DNA of 64,000 bases from Aquamicrobium sp. (lineage in GTDB: Bacteria > Pseudomonadota > Alphaproteobacteria > Rhizobiales > Rhizobiaceae): assembly GCA_019739225.1 (NCBI GenBank), contig JAHHDT010000007.1, positions 310,001 through 374,000 on the forward strand. Reading direction: 5' to 3'. The notes under the pieces are model-generated. The model did no database searches, was not told where the DNA came from, and saw nothing but the letters and a program-made list of their open reading frames with translations. How positions within the stretch are numbered: position 1 is the first letter of the stretch; the number at the start of each line of letters is the position of its first letter. Shown piece after piece: positions 53,891 through 57,800 of the stretch. Both the position numbers and the translations under genes were made by a program.

Positions 53891-54523
53891 CTACCAGCGC
53901 AGCGCGAAGCGCCCGGCGACCGCGCCGAGCGCAGCAAGAATGCCGATCGCGACGCTATACCAGGCGGCCACGAAGAGCGGTGAATCGTCCGTGCAGTGGG
54001 CGGCGTAGAACATCGCCGCCACCCCGCCCGCGACCACGCCAGCCATGGCGCCGGTCAGAACGGGTCGCGTCGGTGCGCCCTTGCGCAGGGCCAAGATCAT
54101 GATCGCCAGCGGCCCCAGGCCGATCAGTGGAATGTAAGTGAGGCAGACCCAGAGATTGGTTCCGATCCAGGACGAGAGCCACGCCTCACGCGGCAGCACC
54201 GACAGTTCCACAAGCACGGCGAGCGCTGCAGCGGCGGGACCCGCAAGTGCCGCCCACATCGGCGGCCGCGCGCCGGGACGCACCAGCGCCTGAACGAGCG
54301 GGATCGTGCTGGCGAGCAGGATCGCAACCAGCAGGAACTTGAGTGGAAAGCGGACCGTGGACAGCACCGCCTGAAAGTCCGGCCGGGGCCCGAGCAGAAT
54401 GGCGAAGACCACGGCGGCGAGCACGAACCCGGCCGTTACGCAAAGCAGCCACGTCCTGCCGATGGGCGCTTCCATGCGTCCGGTGTCGGCGGCAATCGCC
54501 TTGATCAGATCGTCGGTGCGCAT
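53891..54523 (-). CDS. nrsF: NrsF/DUF1109 family anti-sigma factor
   Basis: Six-span inner-membrane protein of 210 residues, with hydrophobic spans near 25-45, 60-80, 88-108, 122-145, 154-176 and 183-205. It matches the DUF1109 family, whose Caulobacter member NrsF binds and inhibits the ECF factor SigF. In Caulobacter two cysteines (recalled as Cys131 and Cys181) are needed for release. Here Cys127 and Cys177 have the same 50-residue spacing, so metal or redox sensing is likely conserved. The start overlaps the sigma stop by one base (TGATG), so both are made in step. Confidence 0.92.
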   Translation of the reverse strand: MRTDDLIKAIAADTGRMEAPIGRTWLLCVTAGFVLAAVVFAILLGPRPDFQAVLSTVRFPLKFLLVAILLASTIPLVQALVRPGARPPMWAALAGPAAAALAVLVELSVLPREAWLSSWIGTNLWVCLTYIPLIGLGPLAIMILALRKGAPTRPVLTGAMAGVVAGGVAAMFYAAHCTDDSPLFVAAWYSVAIGILAALGAVAGRFALRW

Positions 54524-55065
54524 CAGCCGTTACCCCCAAATCGCTGCGCGATCGCGGCAAGACCGCGATGAAGTGCCACCCGTACAGCCGTCTCCTTCAT
54601 GCCAAGGCGCGTGGCGGTCTCGCTGATCGACTTGCCTTCAAGGCTTATCGCGGAAACCACATCCCGCTGCCCGGAGGTCAGGCACTCCAGCGCGCGTTCC
54701 AGATCGCGTTCGCTGACCGTCCGTTGCTCCTCGCTGGCGAGCTGGTCGGAAAAATCATCGATGTCGACGGAAACAGCGCGGCCGTGCCGGCGGAAGGCGT
54801 CCACTATCTTGTAGCGCGCAATGGCGTGCACCCACGGCCCGAGCGGACTGTCGGCGCGCCAGGTGTGGCGCTTGAGATGAATGGCCAGCAACGTTTCCTG
54901 CACGATATCCTCCGGGTCCAACCCCGACGATGATCCGATCCTTTTGCCGACAGTGGCTCTGACCAGCCCGGCGATTTCACGGAGGAAACCGGCATAGGCC
55001 GCTTCGTCGCCATCCAGGGCGGCCCGCAGCATCTTCGAAAGCCGGACATCCGTCTGAGGCGTCAA
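54523..55065 (-). CDS. sigF: ECF sigma factor, SigF-like
   Basis: Sigma-70 family ECF factor of 180 residues. Region 2 is near 15-85 with LDPEDIVQETLLAIHLKRHTW (about 49-69) and PWVHAIARYKIVDAFRRHGR (about 76-95). Region 4 is near 120-175 with RDVVSAISLEGKSISETATRLGMKETAVRVALHRGLAAI. The likely start is TTG 55065 with GGAGAC eight bases before it; ATG 55032 is an alternative. It is cotranscribed with the anti-sigma gene and divergent from the bufferin operon. Both upstream regions share CTGTAACA-N15/16-CGAAYT, a candidate promoter for this factor. Confidence 0.93.
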   Translation of the reverse strand: MTPQTDVRLSKMLRAALDGDEAAYAGFLREIAGLVRATVGKRIGSSSGLDPEDIVQETLLAIHLKRHTWRADSPLGPWVHAIARYKIVDAFRRHGRAVSVDIDDFSDQLASEEQRTVSERDLERALECLTSGQRDVVSAISLEGKSISETATRLGMKETAVRVALHRGLAAIAQRFGGNG

Positions 55066-55076
55066 TACGTGTCTCC

Positions 55077-55106
55077 AATTCGTGCTGCGGGGCCGACTTG
55101 TTACAG
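55077..55106 (-). promoter_or_regulatory. Candidate ECF promoter of the sigma-anti-sigma operon
   Basis: On the minus strand, CTGTAACA (55106-55099), 16 bases, then CGAATT (55082-55077). The same boxes with 15 bases between occur before bufA. The -10-like box is only 11 bases from the TTG start at 55065, leaving almost no leader; this fits better with a start at ATG 55032 or means the -10 box is misplaced. Confidence 0.45.
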
Positions 55107-55212
55107 AGGACTGGGACGAATTGTCGAATCCGCTCTTTTATCGGGGATCACAAACGTGTGTAGCGCACGCGAGTTCACGAAGCCATCACGAAGCCGTGTG
55201 CTGAGCTCCCGG

Positions 55213-55241
55213 CTGTAACACCGCCCCGCCTTCATCGAACT
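55213..55241 (+). promoter_or_regulatory. Candidate ECF promoter of the bufferin operon
   Basis: CTGTAACA (55213-55220), 15 bases, CGAACT (55236-55241). A transcript would start near 55248, giving a leader of about 70 bases that begins just before two small hairpins. The -35 box resembles the TGTAAC-type elements of SigF-like ECF factors. Confidence 0.6.
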
Positions 55242-55250
55242 GGTCAGCAT

Positions 55251-55292
55251 GAAGCCACTCCCGGCTTCAGCCACGAAGCCATTTCCGGCTTC
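55251..55292 (+). repeat. Two tandem hairpins in the bufA leader
   Basis: GAAGCC-N6-GGCTTC occurs at 55251-55268 and again at 55275-55292, a 24-base period. Each forms a 6-bp stem with a 6-base loop. They lie between the putative transcription start and the GGAGG ribosome site of bufA, and may protect the mRNA or tune translation. Confidence 0.7.
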
Positions 55293-55316
55293 AGTCAACA
55301 TGGAGGTATCCAAGAC

Positions 55317-55616
55317 ATGAACCGTCAGATTCTTTCGCTTGCACTGGCCAGCTCGCTCGCCACCGCTATGGGCGCCGCCGCTGTCGGGTCCGCTTCGGCC
55401 CAGGACAAGGAAAACATGGAGAAGTGCTACGGCGTCTCCATGGCCGGCCAGAACGACTGCGCGGCCGGTCCCGGCACCACTTGCGCCGGCACGTCCAAGG
55501 TCGACTACCAGGGCAATTCCTGGAAGCTGGTTCCCGCCGGCACCTGCGAAACCATGGAACTGCCCGGCGAGCGCATGGGCAGCCTCGAAGCGCTTACCCG
55601 CGACATTCCCTCCTGA
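55317..55616 (+). CDS. bufA: Bufferin precursor peptide (DUF2282)
   Basis: A 99-residue precursor of the bufferin RiPP family, periplasmic after export. The signal peptide is [20 protein letters not shown] to SASA, with cleavage likely after residue 28. The mature part has the DUF2282 pattern [24 protein letters not shown], then [17 protein letters not shown], with Cys at 37, 48, 56 and 77. In characterised bufferins, central cysteines are converted to thiooxazoles by BufB and the peptide binds copper. GGAGG lies 10 bases before ATG 55317. It is the first gene of bufA-bufB-bufC-doxX. Confidence 0.92.
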
Positions 55617-55687
55617 GACTGACAGCCGCCGGGGCGCCGCTGGTGGCGCCCCGGCCATCTCCCGAATAAGTGCGGAAGGAAGTCCGG

Positions 55688-56551
55688 ATGCCCCCCTGCA
55701 ATAACTTGCCCAGCCGTGCCGGTCTCGGCCTGAAGCCCGAACATTACGGCGAAATACTCTCCGACCGCCCGGATATCGGCTTCTTCGAAGTGCATGCCGA
55801 AAACTACATGGGCGAAGGCGGCCCGCCGCATCGCTACCTCTCGGCGATTGCCGAGCGCTATCCGCTGTCGCTGCATGGCGTGGGTCTCTCGATCGGGGGT
55901 AGTCGTGATCTCGACCAAGCGCATCTTGCGCGCCTCAAACGGTTGATCGAACGCTACCGTCCGGTGTCGTTCTCAGAGCATCTCGCCTGGTCGACGCACG
56001 ATAGCGGCTATCTCAACGATCTGCTGCCGCTGCCCTACACCGACGAGACCCTGAACCGCGTCTGCGCGCATGTCGGCGAAGTCCAGGAAACGCTCGGCAC
56101 GCGCATGCTGCTGGAAAACCCGTCGACCTATCTTCTGTTCGAGGAAAGCACGATCGACGAGATCGACTTTCTGCAAGCGATTTCAGAGCGTACCGGCTGT
56201 GGGCTGCTGCTCGACGTCAACAATGTGATGGTCTCGGCGATCAACCACCGGCTTGACGCTTACGACTACATCCGCCGTTTCCCCGTCGAGCGCGTCGGTG
56301 AGATCCACCTTGCCGGATACGACGAAACCGCCGACGAGGCGGGAGAGCGGCTGGCAATCGACGCACATGCCTCGACTGTGCACGACGATGTCTTCGCCCT
56401 TTACGAGTTCACGCTCGGCCGCACGGGACCGATCCCGACGCTGGTCGAATGGGACAACGACGTCCCCGATTTCCCGACGCTACAGGCAGAGGCCGAACGG
56501 GTCGACGATGCGCTTGCGCGCCTGCCGGCTGCGGGCAGGAGGGTCGCGTGA
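55688..56551 (+). CDS. bufB: Bufferin-modifying MNIO enzyme (DUF692)
   Basis: Multinuclear non-heme iron-dependent oxidative enzyme of 287 residues, TIM-barrel fold, that modifies cysteines of BufA. Metal-ligand segments include [12 protein letters not shown] near 35-46, [12 protein letters not shown] near 60-71, SEHLAWS near 94-100, [10 protein letters not shown] near 141, [12 protein letters not shown] near 173-184, [10 protein letters not shown] near 204 and [12 protein letters not shown] near 253. ATG 55688 follows GCGGAAGGAAG with good spacing; a GTG at 55670 is less likely. The stop overlaps the bufC start (TGATG). Confidence 0.94.
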
Positions 56552-57330
56552 TGCAACACGCCCAGGGCGAGGCGCGGTTTGCCGCGGCACTGGCCGATCC
56601 CGAGTTGCCGCTGCCGGAAGGCTTGACGAGCGCGCGCGGTGAGGCCGACAGGCTGCGCTTCGCGGTCTATCGCAACAATGTGCATGTCAGCCTGGTCGAA
56701 GCTCTGGTGCGTGCGTTTCCCGTCGTACACCGGATTGTCGGCGATGCGTTCTTCCGCGCCATGGCGCGCGCTTATGTGGCCGAACACAAGCCGGAAAGCG
56801 CCGTGCTGATCCGCTATGGCTCCAGCTTCGCCGATTTTGTCGCCGGGTTCCCGCCGGCGCATGCCCTGGCCTATCTCGCTGATGTCGCGCGGCTCGAATA
56901 CGCCTGGAGCGAGGCGTATCACGCCGCCGACGCCGATCCGATCAGCCTGCAGGATCTGGCGACCGTCGCCGCCGATCTGCTTCCCGATGTGCGACTGATC
57001 GCGCATCCGGCGACGCGGTTGCTTTCTTCAGGGCATGCCATCGGCTCGATCTGGTCAGCACACCAGCAGGAACAGGTGGCACGAGTACAGACGTCGCAGC
57101 CAGAAACGGTTCTGGTGACGCGGCCGCAGGCTGAGGTGAAGGCATCCGTCCTGCCCGAAGACGATGCGCCGTTCATCGCCGCGCTGCTGGCCGGCGACAC
57201 GATCGGCGAAGCGGCCGGGAAAGCCGGTACCGGGGGGCACGGCTTCGATCCGGGAGCGGCGCTGGCGGGGCTGATCTCGCTTGGCGCGGTTTCGGGACTG
57301 CAGATCAACACGCAGGAGACATTTCGATGA
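56551..57330 (+). CDS. bufC: BufC partner protein (DUF2063 domain)
   Basis: A 259-residue cytosolic protein. The N-terminal DUF2063 region shows LRFAVYRNNVHVSLVEALVRAFPVVHRIVGDAFFRAMARAYVAEHKPESAVLIRYG near 35-90, and ADVARLEYAWSEAYHAADA near 107-125. BufC-type proteins bind both the precursor and the MNIO enzyme and are needed for modification. The C-terminal part (about 150-259) resembles a small globular domain ending in FDPGAALAGLISLGAVSGLQ. The start overlaps bufB, and the end overlaps doxX (ATGA), so all are translationally coupled. Confidence 0.92.
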   Translation: MQHAQGEARFAAALADPELPLPEGLTSARGEADRLRFAVYRNNVHVSLVEALVRAFPVVHRIVGDAFFRAMARAYVAEHKPESAVLIRYGSSFADFVAGFPPAHALAYLADVARLEYAWSEAYHAADADPISLQDLATVAADLLPDVRLIAHPATRLLSSGHAIGSIWSAHQQEQVARVQTSQPETVLVTRPQAEVKASVLPEDDAPFIAALLAGDTIGEAAGKAGTGGHGFDPGAALAGLISLGAVSGLQINTQETFR

Positions 57331-57800
57331 ATACGATCGTTGAGCGCGGCACGGGGGTGCTGCACCGACTGGACGCACTGCTGGCGTCGATCCCCCCCTC
57401 GCTGGCGCTGCTGATGCTGCGCGTGGCGCTGGCGGTTCCGTTCTTCCGGTCGGGTCTGACCAAGTGGGAAGGCTTTCTGAACCTGTCGCCGTCGGCACAT
57501 TACCTCTTCGCCAACGAATTCAAGCTGCACCTGTTCGGGCAGGCCTACGGCTTTCCATTGCCCACGCTTGCGGCATGGGGGTCTTCGCTCGGCGAGATCG
57601 TGCTGCCGGTGCTGCTGGTGGCAGGCCTTTTCACGCGTTTTGCCGCGTTCGGGCTGCTGCTGATGACAGCCGTTATCCAGCTCACGATTCCCGATGGCTG
57701 GGCCAACTTCCATCTGCCATGGGCGGCCATGGCACTGGCCCTTGTGGTCTACGGCGGCGGACGTGTTTCAGCCGACGCTTTGCTACCCGCTGGCCGGTAG
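57327..57800 (+). CDS. DoxX family membrane protein of the bufferin operon
   Basis: A 157-residue inner-membrane protein with four hydrophobic spans near 18-42, 74-96, 98-118 and 123-146. The first span contains LRVALAVPFFRSGLTKWEGF, a DoxX hallmark. DoxX proteins often close bufferin operons. A redox or quinol-linked role is suggested by the family name but is not shown. Its 3' end is 5 bases from the convergent LacI gene. Confidence 0.9.
   Translation: MNTIVERGTGVLHRLDALLASIPPSLALLMLRVALAVPFFRSGLTKWEGFLNLSPSAHYLFANEFKLHLFGQAYGFPLPTLAAWGSSLGEIVLPVLLVAGLFTRFAAFGLLLMTAVIQLTIPDGWANFHLPWAAMALALVVYGGGRVSADALLPAGR

Follow-up and report, generated by a model that had tools for sequence, protein, structure and literature searches.

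A predicted bufferin 1 cluster with its own sigma and anti-sigma factor in Aquamicrobium sp., and a candidate regulatory dyad shared with msrP

Copper sequestration has been reported for bufferins (PMC12452194). In the Buf1 (DUF2282) class, which has also been proposed under the name captophorins (PMC13097082), the modified residues are the central cysteines (PMC12452194, legend to Fig. 3), and thiooxazoles have been assigned in bufferin 1 (PMC13097082). Genes for a sigma factor and for NrsF are reported in Buf1 clusters (survey, PMC12452194). Copper induces the SigF regulon of Caulobacter, and a mutant in sigF shows copper sensitivity (PMC8224329). The locus described here consists of bufABCD and the divergent genes sigF-nrsF, and occupies positions 53891-57800 of a stretch of 64,000 nucleotides (nt) of contig JAHHDT010000007.1 of Aquamicrobium sp., hereafter the window. 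Between its two promoters lies a dyad, CAC-N6-GTG, which is the main subject of this report.

The system is of a known kind, since the same locus occurs in S. meliloti and sigma and NrsF genes are reported for Buf1 clusters generally. The first-pass annotation of this DNA had announced a rhizobial member with regulator and biosynthesis in one locus; this arrangement is present, but the novelty implied does not hold, because it has been published for Caulobacter (PMC3511200) and S. meliloti (PMC6180224) and in the survey (PMC12452194). The same annotation described the six genes well and missed the dyad. It is very likely that the Buf1 operon is controlled by its own extracytoplasmic function (ECF) sigma/anti-sigma switch and, in addition, by a second regulator at the dyad. 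The locus itself adds one to the bufferin clusters that have a sigma/anti-sigma pair of their own; the dyad carries more weight.

The dyad between the divergent promoters

A sigma-F-type promoter precedes each transcription unit: TGTAAC-N17-CGAA for sigF-nrsF at 55079..55105 on the minus strand (G000:C7:365079-365105), and TGTAAC-N16-CGAA for bufABCD at 55214..55239 on the plus strand (G000:C7:365214-365239). The dyad, TCACGAAGCCGTG at 55186..55198 (no strand assigned), stands between them as the candidate site of a second regulator; its consensus is about GATCACGAATTCGTG. The related pattern TCAC-N5-7-GTG was found at most 60 nt upstream of the -35 element in 22 of 30 sigF-linked loci.

DUF2282 is present in 104 of the 199 genomes sampled in the family and in 2 of the 8 from the genus. 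The family sample of 61 loci, the window included, draws on 59 DUF2282 places from the 199-genome search and one from the genus search, mostly the best-scoring ones. Divergent sigF is present in 30 of the 61, all with nrsF and bufBCD. Neither sigF nor nrsF was detected within about 5 kb in the other 31 (tblastn with the proteins of the window), and 25 of these have a recognisable bufD. Promoters were rated by a simple score with a maximum of 11 and a threshold of 10 or more, which was reached in 28/30 sigF-linked bufA loci (shuffle mean 0.07) versus 1/31 family loci without sigF. Upstream regions of bufA scoring below 10 formed a second set, provided that no sigF lay beside bufA; genomes without sigF are defined at the bufA locus only, not genome-wide. 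The relatives were selected by similarity to BufA, BufB or MsrP of the host, and the identity filter removes kinship only partly: for bufA, removal of sequences at least 62% alike reduced the two sets from 62 to 51 and from 67 to 60 (the window itself being filtered out as similar to its congener L049), and msrP was filtered at 55% (22 to 19 and 23 to 20, one of the 23 being the second msrP of a listed genome). Named loci are the best 80 of 589, among them one (L190) without a bufA upstream region.

To avoid a visual choice of pattern, each of the 512 dyads of the form XYZ-N3-10-rc(XYZ) was counted. Among the sigma-F-type bufA promoters, each taken up to 75 nt upstream of -35, CAC-N6-GTG is the top dyad with 35/51 (all-dyad mean 1.04, standard deviation 2.3), and the next ranks are nested forms of it, ACG-N4-CGT (20) and TCA-N8-TGA (16). 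It also ranks first upstream of msrP, both in genomes with sigF beside bufA (12/19, mean 1.09; next GGC-N6-GCC, 10) and in those without (14/20, mean 1.37). Where bufA lacks a sigma-F promoter, TCA-N8-TGA comes first (25/60) and CAC-N6-GTG second (21/60; mean 2.5). Across 500 dinucleotide-preserving shuffles per set, the mean and maximum for CAC-N6-GTG were 1.03 and 5 against the observed 35/51, 2.2 and 6 against 21/60, 0.7 and 4 against 12/19, and 0.97 and 4 against 14/20.

The dyad could be a by-product of divergent promoters, either an extended sigma-F element or a trace of shared ancestry, and not an operator. Its nearness to -35 in most loci agrees with this (gap 4-16 nt in 33/38 copies), as does the fact that CACGAAGCC in the window belongs to a local tandem duplication. 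The distance is variable, however, falling at 4-5, 10-13 or 15-16 nt in those 33 copies; the dyad also occurs at bufA and msrP genes that have no sigma-F promoter, it remains first of 512 after similar sequences are removed, and the gig locus of Cupriavidus metallidurans has both sigma-F promoters without a dyad between them. A by-product is thus quite improbable. The dyad occurs at both bufA and msrP whether or not a sigma-F promoter is present, and a separate transcription factor explains this better than a promoter component does. Rather than a sigma-F element, it is probably the site of one factor common to bufferin and periplasmic methionine-sulfoxide repair.

Copies were seen in the named plasmid loci of A. 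tumefaciens, R. leguminosarum, R. gallicum and S. meliloti (pSymB) and in named contigs of Aminobacter, Ancylobacter, Kaistia and Devosia. The host genome holds four copies of TCACGAANNCGTG (reversed control 1), one at bufA and one directly beside the msrP promoter; no TGTAAC-N15-18-CGAA lies within about 1.5 kb of the other two exact copies (C5:553193 and C5:1663009). A perfect palindrome was considered as the site and rejected: TCACGAATTCGTGA occurs in just 2/199 genomes, and this near absence means that the site is not perfectly palindromic.

In a limited check the dyad was not found in print. The strings CACGAATTCGTG, TCACGAACTCGTG and TCACGAAACCGTG occurred literally only in papers unrelated by title or start of abstract, a limited search on promoter motifs of bufferin, gig and SigF yielded no paper whose listing mentions such a dyad, and the words palindrom and inverted are absent from the text of PMC6180224. 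Within the bounds of this check the dyad appears to be a new element, while the architecture of the locus is already published.

Other elements were noted upstream of bufA. In loci without sigF (e.g. L106, L083 and L090) a different conserved element, TTGATTTCC, replaces the sigma-F promoter, and TGATTTCC is present in 27/60 non-redundant bufA regions without a sigma-F promoter. Exact TTGATTTCC was counted in 25 regions, with the dyad upstream in 14; gaps of 16-18 nt make up 10 of the 16 gaps counted. A third, dyad-like element, approximately TATCGAAAC-N-ATGC...GCATTTCA, was recognised by eye in L056, L058, L067, L076 and L092. Plasmids of A. tumefaciens and R. leguminosarum (L255, L256) carry bufABCD, the dyad and a sigma-F-type promoter, and no sigF or nrsF in the annotated stretch, so that a sigma factor would need to act from elsewhere.

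The probable link to msrPQ and the search for a regulator

A third exact copy of TGTAAC-N17-CGAA in the host genome lies upstream of msrP-msrQ (G000:C4:60339). This region (G000:C4:60326-61388; L039/L113), which is outside the window, contains msrP-msrQ, the sigma-F-type promoter and an abutting dyad. MsrP of the host scores 471.5 bits with its NCBIfam model (cut-off 207); MsrQ was named by eye, as was a nearby Ohr-like gene on the opposite strand. When the 30 genomes in which sigF adjoins bufA, the host among them, were searched for MsrP, 29 had a match, in some cases a weak one. A sigma-F promoter score of at least 10 was obtained upstream of msrP in 13 of the 22 strongest loci, that of the host included (shuffle mean 0.17, maximum 1 in 30). 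Where sigF does not stand beside bufA, 22/23 msrP regions score below 10. The copper-induced SigF regulon of Caulobacter includes msrPQ (PMC8224329), and a putative sigma-F promoter has been described for msrP (CC2748; PMC3511200).

Copper, via CusSR, and hypochlorous acid (HOCl), via HprSR, both induce msrP in E. coli, where the box CATTACAAAATTGTAATG lies upstream (PMC9302797, legend to Fig. 1). The dyad might accordingly be the box of a copper/HOCl response regulator of OmpR type, akin to HprR and CusR, in which case bufferin and MsrPQ would form the alphaproteobacterial counterpart of E. coli HprSR/CusSR-msrPQ. TTACAA-N2-TTGTAA of E. coli and TCACGA-N2-TCGTGA do have a common 6-N2-6 layout with the T.AC.A/T.GT.A positions, both upstream of msrPQ, and yet such likeness between 14-mers is weak evidence. 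Other results make this reading rather doubtful. A linkage test with a home-made response-regulator profile (E-value up to 1e-15) gave four inconsistent hits in 192 bufA, msrP and plasmid loci, so that no regulator gene stands regularly beside bufA or msrP; the neighbourhoods of the hits (L075, L051, L269, L167) were without a consistent candidate. No match in 16 genomes reached the cut-off of the copper-regulator model. One relative has a two-component system and a gene for a small, possibly periplasmic protein close to its bufferin locus (L075:6702-9242).

The site emerges from the comparison of loci, and from it we infer the regulator protein and its effect. We lean slightly towards a so far undescribed alphaproteobacterial factor which, at sites of the TCACGA-N2-TCGTGA type, would couple bufferin to repair by MsrPQ, together with SigF/NrsF where these are present and alone elsewhere. 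If it acts in both settings, SigF/NrsF may be an interchangeable module placed over a common older control. Of the family bufferin loci, 31/61 have no adjacent sigF/nrsF, and the site common to bufA and msrP could serve as bait for the missing regulator. From the shared site one would also expect copper to be sequestered and methionine sulfoxide to be repaired in a single response.

Genes, bufferin peptide and anti-sigma factor

Open reading frames and Pfam models bear out all six genes of the earlier description, and every protein scores above its curated Pfam cut-off. The minus strand carries nrsF (53891..54523; anti-sigma factor of the DUF1109/NrsF family, PF06532, 170.7 bits, cut-off 26.8) and sigF (54523..55065; ECF sigma factor), for which Sigma70 regions 2 and 4 exceed the Pfam cut-offs and PRK12512 (NCBIfam) gives 231.9 bits (cut-off 198). 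The divergent ECF factor and DUF1109 protein of the first-pass annotation are thus upheld. On the plus strand follow bufA (55317..55616; Buf1 bufferin precursor, DUF2282), bufB (55688..56551; MNIO maturase, PF05114, 353 bits; MNIO_BufB NF050167 of NCBIfam, 382.3 bits, cut-off 310), bufC (56551..57330; DUF2063 partner protein, PF09836, 88.5 bits, cut-off 27.2) and bufD (57327..57800; DoxX-family protein, PF07681, 62.5 bits). The reported overlaps among the last three genes are real, one base (56551) for bufB/bufC and four bases (57327-57330) for bufC/bufD; sigF and nrsF also share one base (54523). The TTG at 55065 was chosen by us as the start of sigF, and the start of bufB was read as the ATG at 55688, with a GTG at 55670 as a possible alternative. 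DUF2282, NrsF and MNIO each have one match in the host genome at the thresholds used. The closest solved structure to BufB by sequence is 3bww (E-value 1.9e-46); a sequence search of the PDB with BufC gave no match at E-values up to 1. The strict equivalog cut-offs of the nearest NCBIfam models were not reached by BufC (49.5 of 142 bits) or BufD (53.9 of 80). With TGTAAC-N16/17-CGAA upstream of both the sigma gene and its target, as in ECF16, and with NrsF as partner, sigF is classed by sequence as ECF16 type.

BufA carries the DUF2282 four-cysteine pattern claimed for it, at positions 37, 48, 56 and 77 (PF10048, 94.1 bits, cut-off 22.4), and C-x10-C-x6/7-C-x20-C recurs in 61/61 family BufA loci with a middle spacing of 7 or 8. 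A hydrophobic stretch and an ASA-Q site were taken by eye as a putative Sec signal peptide. The BufA2 model (NCBIfam) matches weakly, with 23.9 of 60 bits, and there are four cysteines and not six, so that BufA is taken as a Buf1 and not a Buf2 precursor. Family models and the comparison with relatives agree with the earlier assignment to the bufferins and specify it: the locus is a predicted Buf1 bufferin cluster. Elsewhere (G106:C22, G091:C14 and G065:C11), a pair of neighbouring DUF2282 matches separated by a few hundred bases points to tandem bufA genes. In four loci without sigF (L079, L083, L085 and L104) a threonine-aldolase-like gene is located 5' of bufABCD and an Hsp20-like gene 3', the latter being followed in L079, L083 and L085 by a lysophospholipase-like gene (all by eye).

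The bufA leader contains two tandem 24-nt stem-loops (55248..55295, plus strand; z score -3.59 for 55247-55330), a pattern found nowhere else in the host genome. Over 52 loci the bufA leaders have a mean folding z score of -1.4 relative to their own shuffles, with 16/52 below -2; for control stretches inside bufB the mean is -0.5, with 2/21 below -2. Stem-loops are frequent in the leaders of relatives and differ in sequence. On a plain reading the structure is a stabilising 5' stem-loop.

NrsF of Caulobacter is reported to have six membrane helices. The protein of the window has cysteines at 28, 127 and 177, and the last two are 50 residues apart, as the first-pass annotation had noted. Both are kept in 30/30 aligned family NrsF sequences (the window's own and two short reads included), and Cys28 in 2/30. 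In Caulobacter, serine substitutions of C131 and C181, which have the same spacing, raise expression of the SigF regulon (PMC3511200). In OsrA of Bradyrhizobium binding requires the equivalent C129, and the response to peroxide requires C179 (PMC3420878).

Proposed control and comparison with described systems

In the unstressed cell NrsF would retain SigF at the membrane until a stress in the periplasm, most likely copper, acted through Cys127 and Cys177 of NrsF and freed SigF, as the experiments in Caulobacter and Bradyrhizobium suggest. Freed SigF would transcribe sigF-nrsF and bufABCD from both promoters and, in this host, probably msrPQ too. Following the bufferin literature, BufB and BufC would turn the central Cys48 and Cys56 of BufA into thiooxazoles, and the peptide, exported by Sec, would bind copper in the periplasm. 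The TCACGA-N2-TCGTGA-type dyad, which lies close to the bufA promoter and next to that of msrP, would be the site of a second regulator, independent of the sigma-F promoter.

An oxidant such as hypochlorous acid or peroxide, and not copper, may instead be the inducer; the peptide would then guard against thiol and methionine damage, with copper binding as a secondary property. A pair of the NrsF type governs HOCl resistance in Brucella (PMC8315932), that of Bradyrhizobium, which has three methionine sulfoxide reductases under its control, responds to H2O2 and singlet oxygen (PMC3420878), and a sigma-F-type promoter with the dyad is also found upstream of msrPQ here. The copper induction of the Caulobacter SigF regulon, msrPQ included, the copper sensitivity of the sigF mutant (PMC8224329) and the reported copper sequestration by bufferins (PMC12452194) speak for copper, and an oxidant signal is judged unlikely.

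Several observations weigh against control by SigF/NrsF and a second regulator at the dyad. TGTAAC-N15-18-CGAA has 12 matches in the 5.35 Mb genome versus 26 for the reversed control, which leaves only the placement of the matches informative; two are in the window and one is at msrP, and the other nine were given no meaning. CAC-N6-GTG is absent from 16/51 bufA promoters, the copy in the window is an imperfect palindrome, and in a test for autoregulation CAC-N6-GTG was found in 0/30 upstream regions (about 260 nt) of CusR-like response-regulator genes, which are part of those found in the 16 genomes; this last result also counts against the HprR/CusR kind of regulator. NrsF did not reach NF042994 (NCBIfam), the strict equivalog for anti-sigma-F factor NrsF (96.6 bits, cut-off 300). 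As this model is narrower than the Pfam family, strict orthology to Caulobacter NrsF becomes less likely and the family assignment is untouched. In S. meliloti, SMb20530 rises by 6.8 log units when RpoE7 alone is overexpressed (PMC6180224, Table 1), so that a second activator cannot be obligatory there, and H2O2, Cd and chromate gave no induction of the promoter in the experiments cited (PMC6180224).

Buf1 bufferins, or captophorins, and the window share the precursor, the MNIO, the DUF2063 partner and the DoxX gene, and no difference between the gene sets was found. Caulobacter vibrioides/crescentus CC3252-CC3257 has the same six genes, divergent layout and promoter type, and an NrsF cysteine pair 50 residues apart (PMC3511200); it also has a second sigma-F-dependent bufferin operon, CC2907-CC2905, which the host lacks (one DUF2282 and one MNIO match). 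The same architecture is found in a rhizobium with rpoE7-ecfR7/SMb20527-SMb20530 of S. meliloti pSymB, whose promoters in Table 1 of PMC6180224 are those detected here at the orthologous locus. BufB is 54% and BufA 57% identical over the aligned parts, the S. meliloti copy is on a megaplasmid, and the dyad ACACGCTTTCGTGA was found here between its divergent promoters. E. coli HprSR/CusSR-hiuH-msrPQ has a similar 6-N2-6 layout upstream of msrPQ, a resemblance of a short motif only; compared with that box, the dyad described here is more G+C-rich and is also located upstream of bufferin genes.

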